This document shows positions 33,335 to 43,852 of a DNA stretch of 64,000 bases, piece after piece. Location: assembly GCF_003429665.1 (NCBI RefSeq), contig NZ_QUWK01000001.1:1-64000 (forward strand). The letters run 5' to 3'. Each line of letters starts with the position of its first letter. Position 1 is the first letter of the stretch. The translations under genes were made by a program, and so were the position numbers. This DNA is from Sphaerochaeta halotolerans (GTDB lineage Bacteria; Spirochaetota; Spirochaetia; Sphaerochaetales; Sphaerochaetaceae). The notes under the pieces are model-generated. The model ran no database searches. It was given only the letters and a program-made list of their open reading frames with translations, and was not told where the DNA came from.

Positions 33335-33885
33335 CAATGGCTATCGTTTTTACTCTTGTCCCTACACGCTGCATAATGACAGGATGGAAGGAATCAAGCC
33401 CCCTTTTCACTCATATGGCCTTCATCAACTACAGCAGCCATCTTCCCTCATCGTGCCAACTATATAGTGGCAATCGATGGATTTCTAAAAAGAGAGTGGC
33501 TATTACGAAACGCAGGAGGAATCTGCAAACGAAAGTTTACCAATGACCTGAAATCCGTGAGGGGTTGAACGTCAACAAGGATATCCTGGCTCTCTGTCCC
33601 GAAGCTCGTTACTCCCTGGTTGGAACAACGGCCGCCCTTCCCGAATTCCTTGGCAAGATGGCAAAACTACTGGAAGTTCCATTTGACAACAGTGCTTTCT
33701 TCTTATCAAAACCAGCAGAGTATGAATACTTCGGTAAAGGTGACTGTGTAGACCTCTCCACCTTGGAAGATACGTACTGAAGGAACAGAATTCTCAGTCA
33801 CCAAGCTATCCTTGGCAACCGAGGAGTTGTTCATCTTTCCCAGGAATGCAGAAGTTGCTCAGCGTCGTGTAAGGATTAAGGAAAG
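33335..33885 (+). pseudogene. Decayed lysophospholipid acyltransferase (PlsC-like) gene
   Basis: Pieces of one acyltransferase can be read in all three forward frames. They are FYSCPYTLHNDRMEGIKPPF (from 33348), then HMAFIN, then TTAAIFPHRANYIVAIDGF and KREWLLRNAGGICKRKF (from 33428), then LNVNKDILALCPEARYS and GTTAALPEFLGKMAKLLEVPF (from 33565). The order and motifs (HNDRMEGIKPPF, NHxxFxD, PEARYS, LGK) match the PlsC/LPLAT family as I recall it. At least three frameshifts and a likely deletion after the LEVPF stretch inactivate it, and the catalytic HxxxxD reads HMAFIN. A possible C-terminal remnant (EFSVTKLSLATEEL) runs into the convergent DUF2202 gene. Confidence 0.72.
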
Positions 33886-34461
33886 TTCGGTATCACTGAT
33901 ATAGCGAGCTGTGTAGTCCAGCCCATATCTGCCCAGCTGCCTTACGAATGCACGCATGTGGTTCTCTGAACCTCTCAGCAGATTGTTGTATACCCAGATT
34001 TCCACTTCATCATCCGTCGCCTCAATGGAGCGTTGCAAGTCATGGATATCGAGATCCTCTATAAGGGCTCCTACCATAAAAGCCTCTTCAATGGATGTAC
34101 TGCCTTGCGCAACCAGACTGTCATAGAGTTTCGCAATTTCGGCGTTGTGGAAGACCCCAATCTCAGAGGTTTCAACAGGATTATCCATCTCCTTGTCATG
34201 CAGGACTGCAGAAACCTCATCCATGTGCTGCTGCTCTGCTTTTGCGATGTTGAGGAATACACGATTCCCCCACATTTCATACAGCGCAAGGTATACATCT
34301 CTGGCAAGCTTCTCTTCTTCTACCATATAGAGTAACCCTTGCGTTACGGAAGTTTCTACCATTGCCTCATTTTGAACCTGCTGTTCGTTCATGGGTTGAG
34401 CAGAGAGGGTGACTCCCATTGCCACTACGAAGATCACGGAAAGTATGAGTGTTTTACGCAT
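33859..34461 (-). CDS. Exported DUF2202 (ferritin-like) protein
   Basis: 200-residue protein with an N-terminal signal peptide (MRKTLILSVIFVVAMGVTLSA) and a DUF2202 domain (about 45-195). Its helices carry VEEEKLARDVYLALYEMWG, IAKAEQQHMDEV and GSENHMRAFVRQL, Glu/His patterns like those of ferritin-like diiron bundles. The start at 34461 has AGGGG seven bases upstream; a longer frame to 34557 lacks one. Function is not established for the family; an iron-related or stress role in the periplasm is possible. Confidence 0.85.
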   Translation of the reverse strand: MRKTLILSVIFVVAMGVTLSAQPMNEQQVQNEAMVETSVTQGLLYMVEEEKLARDVYLALYEMWGNRVFLNIAKAEQQHMDEVSAVLHDKEMDNPVETSEIGVFHNAEIAKLYDSLVAQGSTSIEEAFMVGALIEDLDIHDLQRSIEATDDEVEIWVYNNLLRGSENHMRAFVRQLGRYGLDYTARYISDTELSLILTRR

Positions 34462-34541
34462 AATTGACCCCTTTGTTTGTCGTTGAGCAAAGTATAGGGA
34501 TACACTGTTTACGCTATAAGAACACAAGGTAAAGGTTTGGT

Positions 34542-34576
34542 AAAGAAAGAGGAGCAACCTTCGAAAAGCTTGCTCC
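34542..34576 (-). terminator. Rho-independent terminator after kdgK
   Basis: On the minus strand GGAGCAA pairs with TTGCTCC (34570-34576 with 34551-34557) and is followed by the T-rich TCTTTCTTT. It lies between the kdgK stop and the DUF2202 start. Confidence 0.7.
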
Positions 34577-35682: not shown

Positions 35683-35711
35683 TTGATATTTCAAATCATA
35701 GAAGGTATGCT
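35683..35711 (+). promoter_or_regulatory. Promoter of kdgA
   Basis: TTGATA (35683-35688), a 17-base spacer and TATGCT (35706-35711) on the plus strand. The KdgR box lies just downstream of the expected start of transcription. Confidence 0.55.
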
Positions 35712-36760: not shown

Positions 36761-36799
36761 ATGCCGGTACACCCCTCTAGCTGTACCGGCATTTTTCTT
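36761..36799 (+). terminator. Rho-independent terminator after kdgA
   Basis: 11-bp perfect stem ATGCCGGTACA (36761-36771) with TGTACCGGCAT (36782-36792), followed by TTTTTCTTT. Confidence 0.92.
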
Positions 36800-36813
36800 T
36801 GATACTTGTATTG

Positions 36814-37668
36814 ATGAACATCATACAATGCAATGTTCTTACAACTGAGCAGAAACAACACATGGAAGCGCTGTATGCCCTTTGTTGCATACAGGAACCA
36901 CTCAAACAAGAGCTGTTTCTGGGCAACGATATGAATGTTGAGCCAGAGAAGCCATGCTTCTTTCTCGGGTACGAAGAAGTAGAGTTGGTCAGTTTCCTGA
37001 CGGCCTTTTTCCCTACCAAAGAAGAAGTTGAGTTTACCGGCTTTACACATCCAGAGCAGAGAAGACGGGGATACATGACGTCTCTTATTGATACAGCCAT
37101 TCCCCATTTTTCTCACTCCACATATACTCAGGCTCTCTGTATCAGAGAGAAGGGGTCGCAAAGTGGGGAGGAATACCTCAGCAAACGCTATCCAACCATT
37201 GCACGTAGTGAGTTTCTATTGGAGCTGAAGAGCAATGTCTGGAACAGCAGTACAGATGTAGGTACGCTCACTCTGGTTACTATGCAAACCAAAGACGCTG
37301 CAGTAAAGATCCTCAGTGAGATTTTTGAACAGGAGGAGGAGATCAGCCATCAACATTTACATTTTCTCCTCTCCCGTCCAGATGGTCAGGTATACCTCTA
37401 TTGGGTTGGAGGAGTGCTGATAGGAACATTGAATGTACACTACCTCTGCAATGAGGTTGCAATGATCCACGCTGTTGGAATTCATAAGGACTACAGAAGA
37501 AGGGGATATGGATACCAGATGATGATATCTCTCCTCAATACCCTCACCCAGAGGACAGCTCTGGTGAGACTGGAAGTTGAGAGTAATAACGCTCCTGCCT
37601 TTGCTTTGTACCAAAAACTTGGCTTTTATACCCTGAACCGCACTGATTACCATGCAATGTTTTTTTGA
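36814..37668 (+). CDS. GNAT-family N-acetyltransferase, tandem domains
   Basis: 284-residue soluble protein with two acetyltransferase-fold halves. The first half has TGFTHPEQRRRGYMTSLIDTA (about 70-90). The second half has the better conserved HAVGIHKDYRRRGYGYQMMISLL, an acetyl-CoA pyrophosphate loop of the form R/QxxGxG/A, followed by LEVESNNAPAFALYQKLGFYTLNR. The start is uncertain: ATG at 36814 has no ribosome site and lies just past the kdgA terminator; ATG at 36862 is an alternative. The substrate is unknown. Confidence 0.82.
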   Translation: MNIIQCNVLTTEQKQHMEALYALCCIQEPLKQELFLGNDMNVEPEKPCFFLGYEEVELVSFLTAFFPTKEEVEFTGFTHPEQRRRGYMTSLIDTAIPHFSHSTYTQALCIREKGSQSGEEYLSKRYPTIARSEFLLELKSNVWNSSTDVGTLTLVTMQTKDAAVKILSEIFEQEEEISHQHLHFLLSRPDGQVYLYWVGGVLIGTLNVHYLCNEVAMIHAVGIHKDYRRRGYGYQMMISLLNTLTQRTALVRLEVESNNAPAFALYQKLGFYTLNRTDYHAMFF

Positions 37669-37793: not shown

Positions 37794-38861
37794 ATGAAAA
37801 AAACAATTGCTTTGGTTTTGGCTCTCGTTATGGTCGTACCTGCACTGTTTGCACAGGGCGGCTAGGAAGGTGCTCCTGCACCTGTTGTAAGTGAGACTGT
37901 AGCTCCTGTTGCTGCATCTTCGGGAAGCGTAAATGCCTATACGACGCTTGAGGAACCCCTTGCCGCAAAACTGTTCCAGCTGTTTGAAGAAGAGACTGGC
38001 ATCAAGGTTAACTTTGTTCGTCTCAGTGGTGGAGAGGCCGTTGCTCGGCTCGAGGCTGAAGCATCCAATCCTCAAGCTTCTATCTGGGTTGGTGGCGTAG
38101 GTCTTGACCACATCACTGCAAAGAGCAAAGGCCTGACCACTCCTTATGTCAGCCGATACACTTCCAAGACCCCTGAGCAGTTCCGTGACCCGGACAACTT
38201 CTACATTGGTCTGTACGTTGGTCCTCTCACGTTCGTGACCAACATTGATCGTGCAGCAGAACTCGGAATCGAGCCGCCAAAGAGCTGGGCAGATCTCCTC
38301 AAACCTGAGTACAAGGGCTATATCCGCATGGCAAACCCCAACTCATCCGGTACAGCATACAACACCTTGACCACCATTCTTGATGTATTCGGAACCGAGG
38401 ACAAGATGATTGAGTACATGAAGAAACTGGACAAGAATATCGACCAATACACCAAGAGCGGAAGTGCACCTGGAAAGAGTGTTGCAACCGGTGAGATTCC
38501 TGTTGCTATCGGATATGCACATGACCAGGTCAAGCTCAAGGCAGCGGGTTCTCCGATTGTAATCACCGCTCCCTCTGAAGGAACCGGTTATGAGCTCGCC
38601 AGTATGTCGTTGATAAAGGGTGGCCCCGATACGGTCAACGCCAAGAAGCTGTATGATTGGATACTTTCCAGTCCTAAAGCCCAGAAAACCTTCACTGAAT
38701 GGTACGTGGTATTGGTTGCTGAGGGTGCTGCAAAACATCCAGATGCCCTATCCATCGATGAGATTAAGACTGTCAACCAAGACATGGTTTGGGATGGTGA
38801 TAAGGTCAACAAGACCCGTCTGCTTGATCGCTGGACCAATGAGATTGGAAACAAGAGATAA
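37794..38861 (+). pseudogene. ABC binding protein (FbpA/AfuA type) interrupted by an in-frame TAG
   Basis: From ATG 37794 (GGAGG upstream) the frame encodes a signal peptide, MKKTIALVLALVMVVPALFA, then QGG and a TAG at 37863-37865. It then continues open for 331 codons to 38861. The downstream part is a normal type-2 binding protein (VNAYTTLEEPLAAKLFQLFEEETGIKV, LYVGPLTFVTNIDRA, YAHDQVKLKAAGSP). A single C-to-T change from CAG (Gln) would explain it. No usable start codon occurs soon after the TAG, so without readthrough the exported protein is lost. It could be a young pseudogene, a sequencing error or readthrough. Permease and ATPase genes follow. Confidence 0.85.
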
Positions 38862-38938: not shown

Positions 38939-41176
38939 ATGTTTACAAAAAAACGCATCCTTCAGTTCTGCACTGCAGCGCTGATATTCCTGCTGGCTGA
39001 TTTCTGGATGTACAGCACGCTTTCTTCTGATTTCAGAGCATATGAAGCAGAGCGAAATTTTAATGAAATTGAGCTGTTCGCGAAAACAGTTCCTGATGAA
39101 AGAACCGCACAGGATTTTGCCCAGTGGGTCCCAACGGTTAAAGACATCATCCCAGGAGCTAGAGCACTCTACCTTGCATTTGACGAGCAGAACTTCAACT
39201 TTATTGCAGAAAGTGGGTCTGAAACCGCAAGAGCATTATTCCAAGCGTATAACAGCACTCCTGACTTCCAAAAAGCCATGGAGAGTGTCTATTATCTGGA
39301 GCCTATGAAACTTGGATCAACCTATCAAGCTGATTACAGCCTTGATCCTGATACGATTAGCGCGGATACCATTAGGAGCCAGGTGTACTTTGTACCCGTT
39401 GTGGATGAGACAGGGTATCAAGTATCGGGAGCTGCAATGATCCTCGTTCCAACCAGCACTGCAACAGGATACAGCAATCTGCTAAAAACCCTGTTCATTG
39501 CAGCTGCGGTGGTGTTCTTGGGCATTCTCCTCGTACTTACCTTTACCCGCGACCCATTGACGGGTTTCATGGTACTGGGATTGTTTGGCATTGTCATAGT
39601 CTTTATCGCTTACCCATTGATAGAGGCCATCAGGCTTTCCTTCATGAAAGATGGAGTATTCAGCCTGCAGACATGGAAAGAGAGTCTCTCACCAACCTAC
39701 TTGGTCGCATTATGGGGGTCTCTCAGACTGGGTGTTCTTACGGCGACTATTTCCACCTTGGTCGGGTTTATCTTTGCCTTCTTGATCGAACGGACAAGAT
39801 TTAAGCAAAAAAAACTGATGACCACCATGGCAACTATGCCCGTCATTTCTCCTCCATTCAGTCTCTCCCTCTCTATCATTCTGTTGTTCGGGAACAATGG
39901 GCTCATCAGTAAACAATTGCTCCATCTAGATACCTCCATCTATGGTTTGGGTGGGTTGACTCTTGTACAGGTCATTGGAATGTTCCCCATTGCGTTTATG
40001 ACAATCAGTGGAGTGTTGAGACAGATTGACTCTACAGTGGAGGATGCCTCCCTCGACTTGAGTGCCACCAGATGGCAGACATTTAAGGAGATTACCCTTC
40101 CTCTTTCAGTTCCTGGTATTCTCTCAGCTTGGTTGTTGGTGTTCACCAATTCCTTGGCTGACTTTGCCAACCCTTTGCTGCTGAGTGGTGACTACCGAGT
40201 ACTTTCAACAGAAGCATATATGTTGGTTACCGGTCGAAGTAACCTAGGTGCTGGTTCAGCACTCTCCTTCATCCTCTTGATGCCGACCCTCACTGCCTTC
40301 TTGGTACAGCGTAACTGGGTTGCAAAGAAGAGCTATGTAACAGTAACAGGAAAGCCATCCACCACCCTCACCGAACTTACCAACAAACCAGTACGGATTA
40401 CCATGGAAACCTTCTCTTGGATTTTCCTTGGTTTCATTGCCTCACTCTACCTGACCATCGTTGCTGGGTGTTTCGTGGTAAACTGGGGTATTGATTACTC
40501 CTTTACATTAGCAAACTGGGGCGAAGCACTTGCTCGTGGGTGGACATCCATCCGTGATACAGTAACCCTGGCAGCTATCGCGACACCGATAGCAGGACTC
40601 CTTGCCATGCTTGCCGCAATGCTGATTGTAAGAAAGAACTTCCCAGGAAAACGGATTCTTGAGATGTTGATCATGACTCCCTATGCCATTCCTGGAACCT
40701 TGATTGGTATCAGTTACATTCTGGCATTCAACCGGCAACCTCTATTGCTGGTAGGAACTGGAGCAATCATCGTCATAAACTACATAATCCGCGAACTGCC
40801 GGTAGGACTGGAGAATGGTATTACGGCCTTGCACCAGATTGATCCGGCCATTGAGGAAAGCGCAGCGGACCTGGGTGCAGATGTTCCCACAGTCTTCAGG
40901 ACAATTGTACTTCCCTTGATCCGTCCGGCATTCCTGTCCAGCATGTCCTACACATTTGTACGGTCCATGACTGCTGTCAGTGCCATCATCTTCTTGATTT
41001 CGGCTCGCTGGAATCACCTGACCGTTTTGATCTTCAACTTCTCAGAAAATCTTCGCTTCGGTCTCGCTAGCGTCTTGTCAACCATCCTGATTGTCATCGT
41101 CCTCTCTGTTTGGGCTCTGATGCAAATTGTGGTTCGTGATGACAAGCTCACCCAGAAAACTATTTCAACCCGCTAA
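38939..41176 (+). CDS. Fused two-domain ABC permease (FbpB type) with extra N-terminal domain
   Basis: 745-residue inner-membrane protein. Two permease halves each carry an EAA-type loop, VEDASLDLSATRWQTFKEITLP and IEESAADLGADVPTVFRTIVLP, as in ferric iron FbpB and related permeases of about 500-560 residues. The excess is at the N-terminus: one membrane helix (about 10-28), a periplasmic segment of about 150 residues (roughly 30-180) and a second helix near 185-205. That segment could dock the binding protein. The gene follows the TAG-interrupted binding-protein gene and precedes the ATPase by 11 bases. Confidence 0.88.
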   Translation: MFTKKRILQFCTAALIFLLADFWMYSTLSSDFRAYEAERNFNEIELFAKTVPDERTAQDFAQWVPTVKDIIPGARALYLAFDEQNFNFIAESGSETARALFQAYNSTPDFQKAMESVYYLEPMKLGSTYQADYSLDPDTISADTIRSQVYFVPVVDETGYQVSGAAMILVPTSTATGYSNLLKTLFIAAAVVFLGILLVLTFTRDPLTGFMVLGLFGIVIVFIAYPLIEAIRLSFMKDGVFSLQTWKESLSPTYLVALWGSLRLGVLTATISTLVGFIFAFLIERTRFKQKKLMTTMATMPVISPPFSLSLSIILLFGNNGLISKQLLHLDTSIYGLGGLTLVQVIGMFPIAFMTISGVLRQIDSTVEDASLDLSATRWQTFKEITLPLSVPGILSAWLLVFTNSLADFANPLLLSGDYRVLSTEAYMLVTGRSNLGAGSALSFILLMPTLTAFLVQRNWVAKKSYVTVTGKPSTTLTELTNKPVRITMETFSWIFLGFIASLYLTIVAGCFVVNWGIDYSFTLANWGEALARGWTSIRDTVTLAAIATPIAGLLAMLAAMLIVRKNFPGKRILEMLIMTPYAIPGTLIGISYILAFNRQPLLLVGTGAIIVINYIIRELPVGLENGITALHQIDPAIEESAADLGADVPTVFRTIVLPLIRPAFLSSMSYTFVRSMTAVSAIIFLISARWNHLTVLIFNFSENLRFGLASVLSTILIVIVLSVWALMQIVVRDDKLTQKTISTR

Positions 41177-41187
41177 GGTGGTGATGT

Positions 41188-42288
41188 ATGGAAAAGAAAA
41201 GCGTATCGGTAACCCTTGAGCATGTAACCAAGAGATTCAAGGATGTAAAAGGAAAGTCTGATGTCATTGCTGTCAATGATTCTCACTTCGTCATCGAGCC
41301 TGGTGAGTTGGTAACCCTGCTCGGTCCTTCCGGTTGTGGAAAAACTACCACGCTTAGAATGATTGCAGGGTTCGAGCTTCCCACTGAGGGTAAGATCTAT
41401 ATTGGAAACGAGGAAGTAACCATGCTCCCCCCGAACAAACGTGACACTGCCACAATGTTCCAGAGCTATGGCCTCTTCCCTCATATGACGGTCTTCGACA
41501 ACGTTGCCTATGGATTGAAACTCCGCAAGATTCCCCATGAGGACATCGTGAAACGGGTAAATGAAACCTTGGCTTTGGTTGGGCTTTCAGACTATGGGGA
41601 TCGTGCACCATCCAAGCTCTCTGGAGGGCAACAACAGCGAGTTGCTCTTGCACGAAGCCTCATTGTCACCCCATCAGTGTTGTTGCTTGATGAACCACTG
41701 TCCAACCTTGATGCACTGCTTCGCGAGCAAATGCGTGTGGAAATACGCAAGATCCAGAAGGAATTGGGCATCACTGCTGTCTATGTTACCCACGACCGGG
41801 TGGAGGCCATGAGTCTCTCTGACCGAGTGGTTGTCATGAAAGATGGTTTCATCCGCCAGATTGGTTCCCCGATTGACATCTATGAGAACCCTAACTCCCG
41901 CTTTGTTGCTGGGTTTGTCGGTAAGGCAGCCTTCTTCCCTGTTAGGGTAAAGAAACAAGAAGCAAACCTTTGGACTTGCCAGCTTGGGGAGAAGGAGGTT
42001 GTGGTAGAACGTGCTACCACTGATGTAGAGGTTGGTACTGAGGCAGTTCTGATGGCACGCCCTGAATCACTTCGAGTTACTGAAAAAGGTAAAGGTAAAA
42101 TTGAAGGCAAGGTCAGAATGAATGTCTATCTTGGAAACAGTATGGAAGCATTCATCAATACCTCCTTCGGAGAAGTGCTGGTCCAGATTGACGACCCCCA
42201 TGCAAAAAAGGTATTTGAGGAAGGAGAAGAGGTCTCTATCGACTTCACTCCTGATCGGGTCAGATTGCTCAATGAAAATGAAGCGTAA
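41188..42288 (+). CDS. ABC transporter ATPase (FbpC/PotA type)
   Basis: 366-residue ATPase: Walker A LGPSGCGKTT (about 44-53), Q-loop in MFQSYGLFPHMTVFDN, signature LSGGQQQRVALARSL, Walker B VLLLDEPLSNLD and H-loop THDRVEAMSLSDR. Arg follows HD where Gln is usual. A C-terminal TOBE-type regulatory domain (about 240-366) is present. It completes the three-gene ferric/polyamine-type importer whose substrate cannot be fixed by sequence. Its TAA overlaps the first base of repeat copy 2. Confidence 0.9.
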   Translation: MEKKSVSVTLEHVTKRFKDVKGKSDVIAVNDSHFVIEPGELVTLLGPSGCGKTTTLRMIAGFELPTEGKIYIGNEEVTMLPPNKRDTATMFQSYGLFPHMTVFDNVAYGLKLRKIPHEDIVKRVNETLALVGLSDYGDRAPSKLSGGQQQRVALARSLIVTPSVLLLDEPLSNLDALLREQMRVEIRKIQKELGITAVYVTHDRVEAMSLSDRVVVMKDGFIRQIGSPIDIYENPNSRFVAGFVGKAAFFPVRVKKQEANLWTCQLGEKEVVVERATTDVEVGTEAVLMARPESLRVTEKGKGKIEGKVRMNVYLGNSMEAFINTSFGEVLVQIDDPHAKKVFEEGEEVSIDFTPDRVRLLNENEA

Positions 42289-42406
42289 TGAAAGGTATCA
42301 ATACCCCAGGGCAAGCCCTGGACTTAGGAGGCGTTGCCTCCTTTTCCGCCCCAAGGGACGGGGTATCTCACCTTGCTTTCCCTGCACTCGCTCCGTTGGG
42401 GAATCA
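42288..42406 (+). repeat. Dispersed structured repeat, copy 2 (internal 39-base deletion)
   Basis: 119-base copy that begins on the last base of the ATPase stop codon and ends GTTGGGGAATCA. Compared with copy 1 it lacks 39 bases between two CTCGCT direct repeats, a likely slippage deletion that keeps the reading frame (13 codons). The CCAGGG/CCCTGG and AGGAGG/CCTCCT hairpins are intact. It lies between two convergent genes, as copy 1 does. Confidence 0.9.
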
Positions 42407-42481
42407 GATGATGCTTGATTCGAGAGGCAGCCTATCTTTTTCTCACAGCAAGGCCAATGTATCATTATACAGAATTAGTCA

Positions 42482-43852
42482 CTATCCACGCGTGAGAAAA
42501 ACGCCTTCTTCAATGACATACGGAGCTGAAACCCCCTGAACACGTACATCTTGGGCTGTTAATGATACATTACGTAGCCTGATACCACGTCCCTCCTGAT
42601 CCGGGAGCCCTTCATACATCTCACTTTCATGTACCGGTACCAGGTTCTCTGGCGCAACAGTAAATACACAGTTTGAGACGACCAAATCACGGATAGGGGA
42701 TTCCGGGAGTCCCACAATGAATGCAGCACTGGATCTACTATTGGTACTTGTGCAACCTTCAATAGTGACATGCTCAATATGGGGAGTGGTGGGGAGCACT
42801 GGTTTCTTCTCCAAGGAAAAATCTTCAGCATCCAGGCTGCCACAGCGATAGTACATGCTAACGGTAAGAGGACAGAGGTTGTTCTCCATCCTGATATCTT
42901 GGAAATGCAGGTCAGAAATAACCCCTCCCCGACCTCGTCTGGTCTTGATCCTGATGCCTCTATCTGTACCATCAAAGAGACATGAACGCACCACCACAGC
43001 ATGGATGCCTGCAGCGGTTTCGCTACCGATGACAGCACCTCCATGAGCATGTCTTACAGTACATCCCTCGATAAGGATATCACTGGTACTACGATTCACC
43101 GCAACCCCATCCTTTCCGCTTCCGCTCTTGAGGGCAATGCCATCATCCCCAACATCGATTACACAATTCTTGATAGTCACAAAGCGACAAGAATCCACAT
43201 CGATACCATCGGTGTTGGGTGCATCCTGAGGGTTAATCACAGAAAGATCCCTGAGAATGATATTGGTGCTGTACAGGGGATGAACCGTCCAGAAGGGGCT
43301 GTTCTGTATGGTCAATCCTTCAATCTCAACATTGTTGCTCTCCTTGATCTGCAACAAGGGAGGACGAAGGAATTGACTCTCACGTCCTCCTCCCCCTCCA
43401 CTCTGTCTCTCATACCCAGGATTCAGCTTGGCCAATTTCGTCTCGATTGTGGAAACAGGTCCCACTTGTGTATTCCGCTTCTGTTGAGCGGCGAGCCACC
43501 ACCAGGAACCATTGCCATCTATGACGCCTTCCCCATGGAGGATGAGACCATCAGATTCATTGATTAGCAAACAAGGATGCATGCAATAACAGTTCACCCC
43601 TTCCCAACGTGAATAGAAAGGTTTGTAGAGGTTCTCATCAGCAATGAAGGTTATGGTTGCACCCTTTTCAAATTCCACCACAAGATTCGTTGCAGTAATC
43701 TGGATTGGACCACTCAGGTAGTTCCCTTTTTCGATACACAAGTGCCCGCCGTTATGCAAGGCTTCAAACGCTCGTTTGAAAACCTCACTATTGTCAAACG
43801 TTCCATCACCTTTTCCCCCGAAATCTGCAAGTGTATATTCCTTGTTCATCAT
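42482..43852 (-). CDS. GH28 polygalacturonase/galacturonidase, cytoplasmic
   Basis: Hydrolyses alpha-1,4-galacturonan, releasing galacturonate. The 456-residue protein is a right-handed parallel beta-helix of family GH28. Catalytic motifs in order: NTDGID (about 215), VGDDGIALKSG (about 237), AHGGAVIGSE (about 272) and RIKTRRGRGG (about 302). There is no signal peptide, so it probably acts as an exo-enzyme on imported oligogalacturonides. It is divergent from the epimerase gene with 48 bases between the start codons. AAGAGGTG precedes its ATG. Confidence 0.93.
   Translation of the reverse strand: MMNKEYTLADFGGKGDGTFDNSEVFKRAFEALHNGGHLCIEKGNYLSGPIQITATNLVVEFEKGATITFIADENLYKPFYSRWEGVNCYCMHPCLLINESDGLILHGEGVIDGNGSWWWLAAQQKRNTQVGPVSTIETKLAKLNPGYERQSGGGGGRESQFLRPPLLQIKESNNVEIEGLTIQNSPFWTVHPLYSTNIILRDLSVINPQDAPNTDGIDVDSCRFVTIKNCVIDVGDDGIALKSGSGKDGVAVNRSTSDILIEGCTVRHAHGGAVIGSETAAGIHAVVVRSCLFDGTDRGIRIKTRRGRGGVISDLHFQDIRMENNLCPLTVSMYYRCGSLDAEDFSLEKKPVLPTTPHIEHVTIEGCTSTNSRSSAAFIVGLPESPIRDLVVSNCVFTVAPENLVPVHESEMYEGLPDQEGRGIRLRNVSLTAQDVRVQGVSAPYVIEEGVFLTRG

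Follow-up and report, generated by a model that had tools for sequence, protein, structure and literature searches.

The DNA analysed, referred to here as the window, is a stretch of 64,000 nucleotides from Sphaerochaeta halotolerans 4-11T (contig NZ_QUWK01000001.1, positions 1 to 64,000), and it carries an ABC transporter operon in which the gene for the solute-binding protein is interrupted by an in-frame stop codon (Table 1). The binding-protein frame opens with the ATG at 37794, downstream of a good GGAGGAAAGC ribosome-binding site, and reads MKKTIALVLALVMVVPALFAQGG before it meets the TAG. From there, 331 sense codons run to the TAA at 38859-38861, such that the frame amounts to 355 residues if the TAG is counted as one. 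The preliminary description of this DNA had reported a TAG just past the signal peptide and the residues QGG, followed by more than 300 uninterrupted codons and by intact permease and ATPase genes, and all three statements are borne out by the window sequence. The next in-frame start after the TAG is the GTG at 38235, which lies within the binding domain and is not followed by a signal peptide; no ATG, GTG or TTG occurs in frame before codon 148. Judged by its sequence, the frame is not a chance open frame: its dN/dS is about 0.04, and six genomes of the genus have orthologs at 94-95% amino acid identity.

Table 1. Features of the interrupted transporter operon, in window coordinates
Feature	Position	Strand	Remark
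Signal peptide and first three mature residues, MKKTIALVLALVMVVPALFA then QGG	37794..37862	+	Cleavage point placed by eye
In-frame TAG, codon 24	37863..37865	+	Gln codon in most other orthologs
Possible RNA hairpin, AGGUGC-UCCU-GCACCU, 6 bp, -10.2 kcal/mol	37868..37883	+	2 nt past the TAG; noticed post hoc
331 codons and TAA of AfuA-like solute-binding protein (SBP_bac_6/SBP_bac_8/SBP_bac_1)	37866..38861	+	Conserved; no usable start before 38235
Intact permease, 745 aa, two BPD_transp_1 domains in one chain	38939..41176	+	Single open frame
Intact ABC ATPase, 366 aa, same operon	41188..42288	+	Single open frame

The binding protein belongs to the Pfam group SBP_bac_6/8/1/11, and its likeliest identity, to go by its sequence, is the binding component of an AfuA-like transporter for phosphorylated sugars, with a sugar phosphate as the probable substrate. 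This assignment is based on match scores to structures in the PDB and on three aligned ligand residues. The best-scoring chains are 8x1a (221 bits), AfuA 4r72 (192.7 bits over residues 46-351) and P5PA 6wce (159 bits). His205, Asp206 and Glu229 of AfuA align with H243, D244 and E267, with the numbering offset taken from the printed alignment. In the available part of the report on AfuA, the hexose-phosphate binding protein of AfuABC (PDB 4r72-4r75; PMC4546632), mutation of these three residues abolished binding of glucose-6-phosphate, and all three are matched here. The S. halotolerans operon differs from AfuABC, as described in that part of the report, in its broken binding-protein gene and in its permease, which is fused into one chain and extended at the N-terminus. 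P5PA, a pyridoxal-phosphate binding protein, is homologous and scores below AfuA; its distinguishing ligand contact is Gln267, according to the accessible text on that protein (PMC8427247). The NCBIfam equivalog model phnS2 matches the binding protein at 208.4 bits, short of its cut-off of 392.75, and the PhnU2 and PhnT2 models likewise score under their cut-offs at the transporter locus.

The N-terminal extension of the permease (38939-39570) consists of about 210 residues that precede the two transport domains and lie beyond the PhnU2 match. Gene content differs among relatives downstream of the ATPase gene. In relative G011, a five-gene oligopeptide-type ABC operon, its genes named by eye, lies between the ATPase gene and a polygalacturonase-like gene, and an insert of like length is found at this place in relatives G001 and G017; S. 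halotolerans (window 42288-42482) and relative G019 have no such insert.

Orthologs of the binding protein were sought in 60 genomes as well as in all 26 members of the genus. The gene is present in 19 of the 26, and only in S. halotolerans 4-11T is it interrupted by the stop. Within the aligned stretch, no stop was seen at any of 80 loci from a second collection, which includes some of the same genomes, and a second S. halotolerans strain was not among the genome collections searched. An in-frame TAG in relative G021 was set aside, as it belongs to the C-terminal end of a distantly related paralog and is irrelevant to the stop at codon 24; a match with a TAA in G014 is 39% identical to the binding protein. 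The site of codon 24 is occupied by Gln in 12 of the 18 other orthologs (CAA in seven, CAG in five) and by Lys, Ala or Pro in the remaining six. Therefore, the codon sits in a variable Ala/Pro linker. CAA is the codon in each of the six nearest relatives; the five orthologs with CAG come from more distant ones. A single change of CAG to TAG had been put forward as the origin of the stop, and this stands insofar as CAG, on comparison of the orthologous codons, was probably the immediate predecessor on the S. halotolerans lineage; it does not describe the difference from the nearest relatives, whose CAA departs from TAG at two codon bases.

The coding sequence after the TAG has not detectably decayed. 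Comparison was made with four relatives, in which syntenic stretches match the window over most or all of its length, with about 80-87% of nucleotides identical. Against these, dN/dS is 0.037-0.050 for the broken gene, 0.036-0.040 for the permease gene and 0.038-0.046 for the ATPase gene. The lineage-specific N:S of the broken gene is 13:51, a mid-field value in that 31 of 50 window genes have a lower ratio; this set leaves out the antisense ORFs at 35691 and 37770, as well as genes for which fewer than three relatives were available. Had constraint gone early on the branch, N would be expected to approach 2.7 times S. The neutral share of the branch, estimated from N:S, is about 1-9%, with upper bounds of 8-15% that vary with the baseline. 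In the same gene, the singletons of the relatives number 1:47 (Fisher p = 0.003 against 13:51), which hints at some mild relaxation earlier on the branch. The intact permease gene shows a like rise in N:S (25:134 versus 2:66 in the relatives, p = 0.006), so that the effect is not confined to the broken gene; the branch as a whole may have undergone a mild shift. The highest two ratios of the 50 belong to the acetyltransferase gene that immediately precedes the broken gene (36799-37668, N:S 0.80) and to the gene for a predicted secreted protein of 232 residues (33859-34557, N:S 1.00).

The machinery for decoding TAG was surveyed across the genome. The preliminary description had proposed a search for an amber suppressor tRNA, and none emerged: with anticodons read for all 45 tRNA genes, none is CUA. 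The list of tRNAs is not absolutely complete, because tRNA-Ile(GAU) and tRNA-Ala(UGC) are absent from it; both would probably lie in rRNA operons that were not assembled. A search for CUA anticodon loops by a six-base pattern gave 580 matches and was uninformative. The best match to the pyrrolysyl-tRNA synthetase PylS reaches 28.0 bits against a cut-off of 178.15, and pyrrolysine decoding was rejected on this result. Release factor RF1 is intact (505 bits, cut-off 423), with no stops and with its GGQ present. TAG is the terminator of 16 of the 50 window genes (16 of 52 before the two antisense ORFs were dropped). No internal stops were found in matches to the ABC families, whether PF00528 (0 of 84), PF01547 (0 of 30, a count outside which the present stop falls, as the PF01547 match of the broken gene begins past the TAG) or PF00005 (0 of 112). 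Genome-wide recoding of TAG was rejected on the grounds of the tRNA and PylS results, the intact RF1, the window genes that end in TAG and the absence of stops from all 226 ABC-family matches.

S. halotolerans 4-11T is an oil-field isolate obtained in pure culture, and its draft genome was assembled with SPAdes from Illumina 250-bp single-end reads at 119x (run SRR8109312; PMC6284720). The assembly comprises 2,927,075 bp in 49 contigs, of which the largest is 334,155 bp, with an N50 of 187,017 bp. The published annotation counts 34 pseudogenes among 2,788 genes (PMC6284720), a rate at which about 0.6 would be expected per 50 genes. The window also contains, at 33381-33901, the deletion remnant of a gene for 439 residues, in which residues 72-116, 351-394 and 396-439 are left and about 0.8 kb is missing; this gene is open in all four relatives. 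Given this background rate and the remnant, one fresh nonsense mutation is ordinary for the genome.

That the stop is an error of sequencing or assembly, and that the cell has a sense codon at 37863-37865, would agree with a gene that looks functional throughout by dN/dS and N:S. The TAG is moreover preceded by GGCGGC and followed by an inverted repeat, and contexts of this type are prone to Illumina errors. Such an error is nevertheless very unlikely, because the assembly derives from a clonal isolate read with 250-bp Illumina reads at 119x (PMC6284720). The window, compared with the ORFs of the four relatives, holds no other credible in-frame stop; the further flagged stops that were looked at belonged to start extensions upstream, to antisense ORFs or to the deletion remnant.

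There is likewise only a slim chance that the TAG is functional through amber readthrough, in which a near-cognate tRNA such as tRNA-Gln(CUG) would read the UAG, perhaps aided by a hairpin, to give a low level of full-length protein. The conserved coding sequence past the stop is equally expected under readthrough, codon 24 lies in a variable linker where the residue could be anything, and Belinky et al. 2021 argue that in-frame stops of this kind are often tolerated (PMC7918605). The hairpin 2 nt past the UAG is one pair short and weaker (-5.2 to -6.5 kcal/mol) at the same site in the six nearest relatives, and its energy is reached by 82 of 18,453 in-frame 25-nt stretches of window genes. 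It is a weak lead, however, given that it was noticed afterwards, that the fold around the TAG is not unusual over spans of 50, 78 and 147 nt (z of -0.45, -1.05 and -0.68), and that the codons of an Ala/Pro linker predispose to pairing. The more specific proposal that the UAG and the newly gained hairpin form a cis element for readthrough by a normal near-cognate tRNA, throttling rather than abolishing the binding protein, is highly improbable. Against readthrough in general stand the lack of a suppressor tRNA and of a pyrrolysine system, and the intact RF1. A recent stop also predicts like conservation, and no sign is seen of selection keeping the stop, because no relative examined shares it.

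The observations are best accounted for by a genuine nonsense mutation that very recently inactivated the AfuA-like binding-protein gene, the only copy in 4-11T, a reading to which a probability of roughly 0.86 is assigned. Very recent loss had been offered as one of three options in the preliminary description, and it is now clearly favoured, with the stop in one of 19 orthologs, no detectable decay and no suppressor tRNA. A second gene copy that makes up for the loss was considered and rejected, because the next best match in the same genome is only 28% identical. Under nonsense loss, ribosomes would release after 23 codons, leaving only the signal peptide and QGG, and reinitiation could not restore an exported binding protein, because no start is available in frame until codon 148. 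The permease and ATPase frames remain intact, but the binding protein would be gone. Ribosomes would leave about 1.07 kb of mRNA before the permease gene untranslated, which may have polar effects on the genes downstream. In sum, the binding protein would presumably not be made, and uptake would be lost. As a variant of recent loss rather than a contrary to it, the TAG may be a polymorphism of the strain or have arisen during laboratory growth, and not be fixed in the species. This fits the very young age of the stop, and, in the accessible part of Belinky et al. (PMC7918605), most shared in-frame stops last no longer than population polymorphisms do; it is regarded as possible, though not as the expected outcome.

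Nonsense loss is a well-known kind of event, and the closest parallels are the in-frame stops of Belinky et al., which, as far as the available portions of that paper go, are likewise single in-frame TAGs for a Gln codon (the worked example is TAG/CAG), with low dN/dS and a short life (PMC7918605). Carbohydrate transport and metabolism is among the commonest categories of genes with such stops in those portions (PMC7918605). Their set consists of stops common to at least two genomes, whereas the S. halotolerans stop is found in one. Belinky et al. describe bacterial in-frame stops as mostly short-lived and interpret their low dN/dS as pointing to readthrough, again in the text available (PMC7918605); here, the low dN/dS is explained by a recent stop without readthrough. 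A stop that arose within about the last tenth of a branch leaves dN/dS untouched, and conservation past an in-frame stop therefore does not on its own point to readthrough. In this respect the S. halotolerans gene can serve as a calibration case: the loss is clean and very young, the isolate has a name, its reads are public, and it has close relatives. Readthrough, if shown, would matter far more.

The presumed predecessor of the TAG site would contain CCAGG, a Dcm-type site in which the changed base is the inner C, and deamination of a 5-methylcytosine there would be a candidate route to the TAG. On the lineage, C-to-T changes affect 22 of 188 inner C of CCWGG, compared with 13 of 188 outer C (p = 0.15) and 58 of 609 middle C of ACWGG, GCWGG and TCWGG taken together (p = 0.41); the rate at the inner C is higher than at all other C (p = 0.02). 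The genome has one C5-cytosine methyltransferase, within an MzaC/MzaD/MzaE-like island. There (C12:20000-26629), the MzaC/MzaD/MzaE-like genes are followed by the methyltransferase gene at the end of the contig, an arrangement that resembles an MZA-type anti-phage island.
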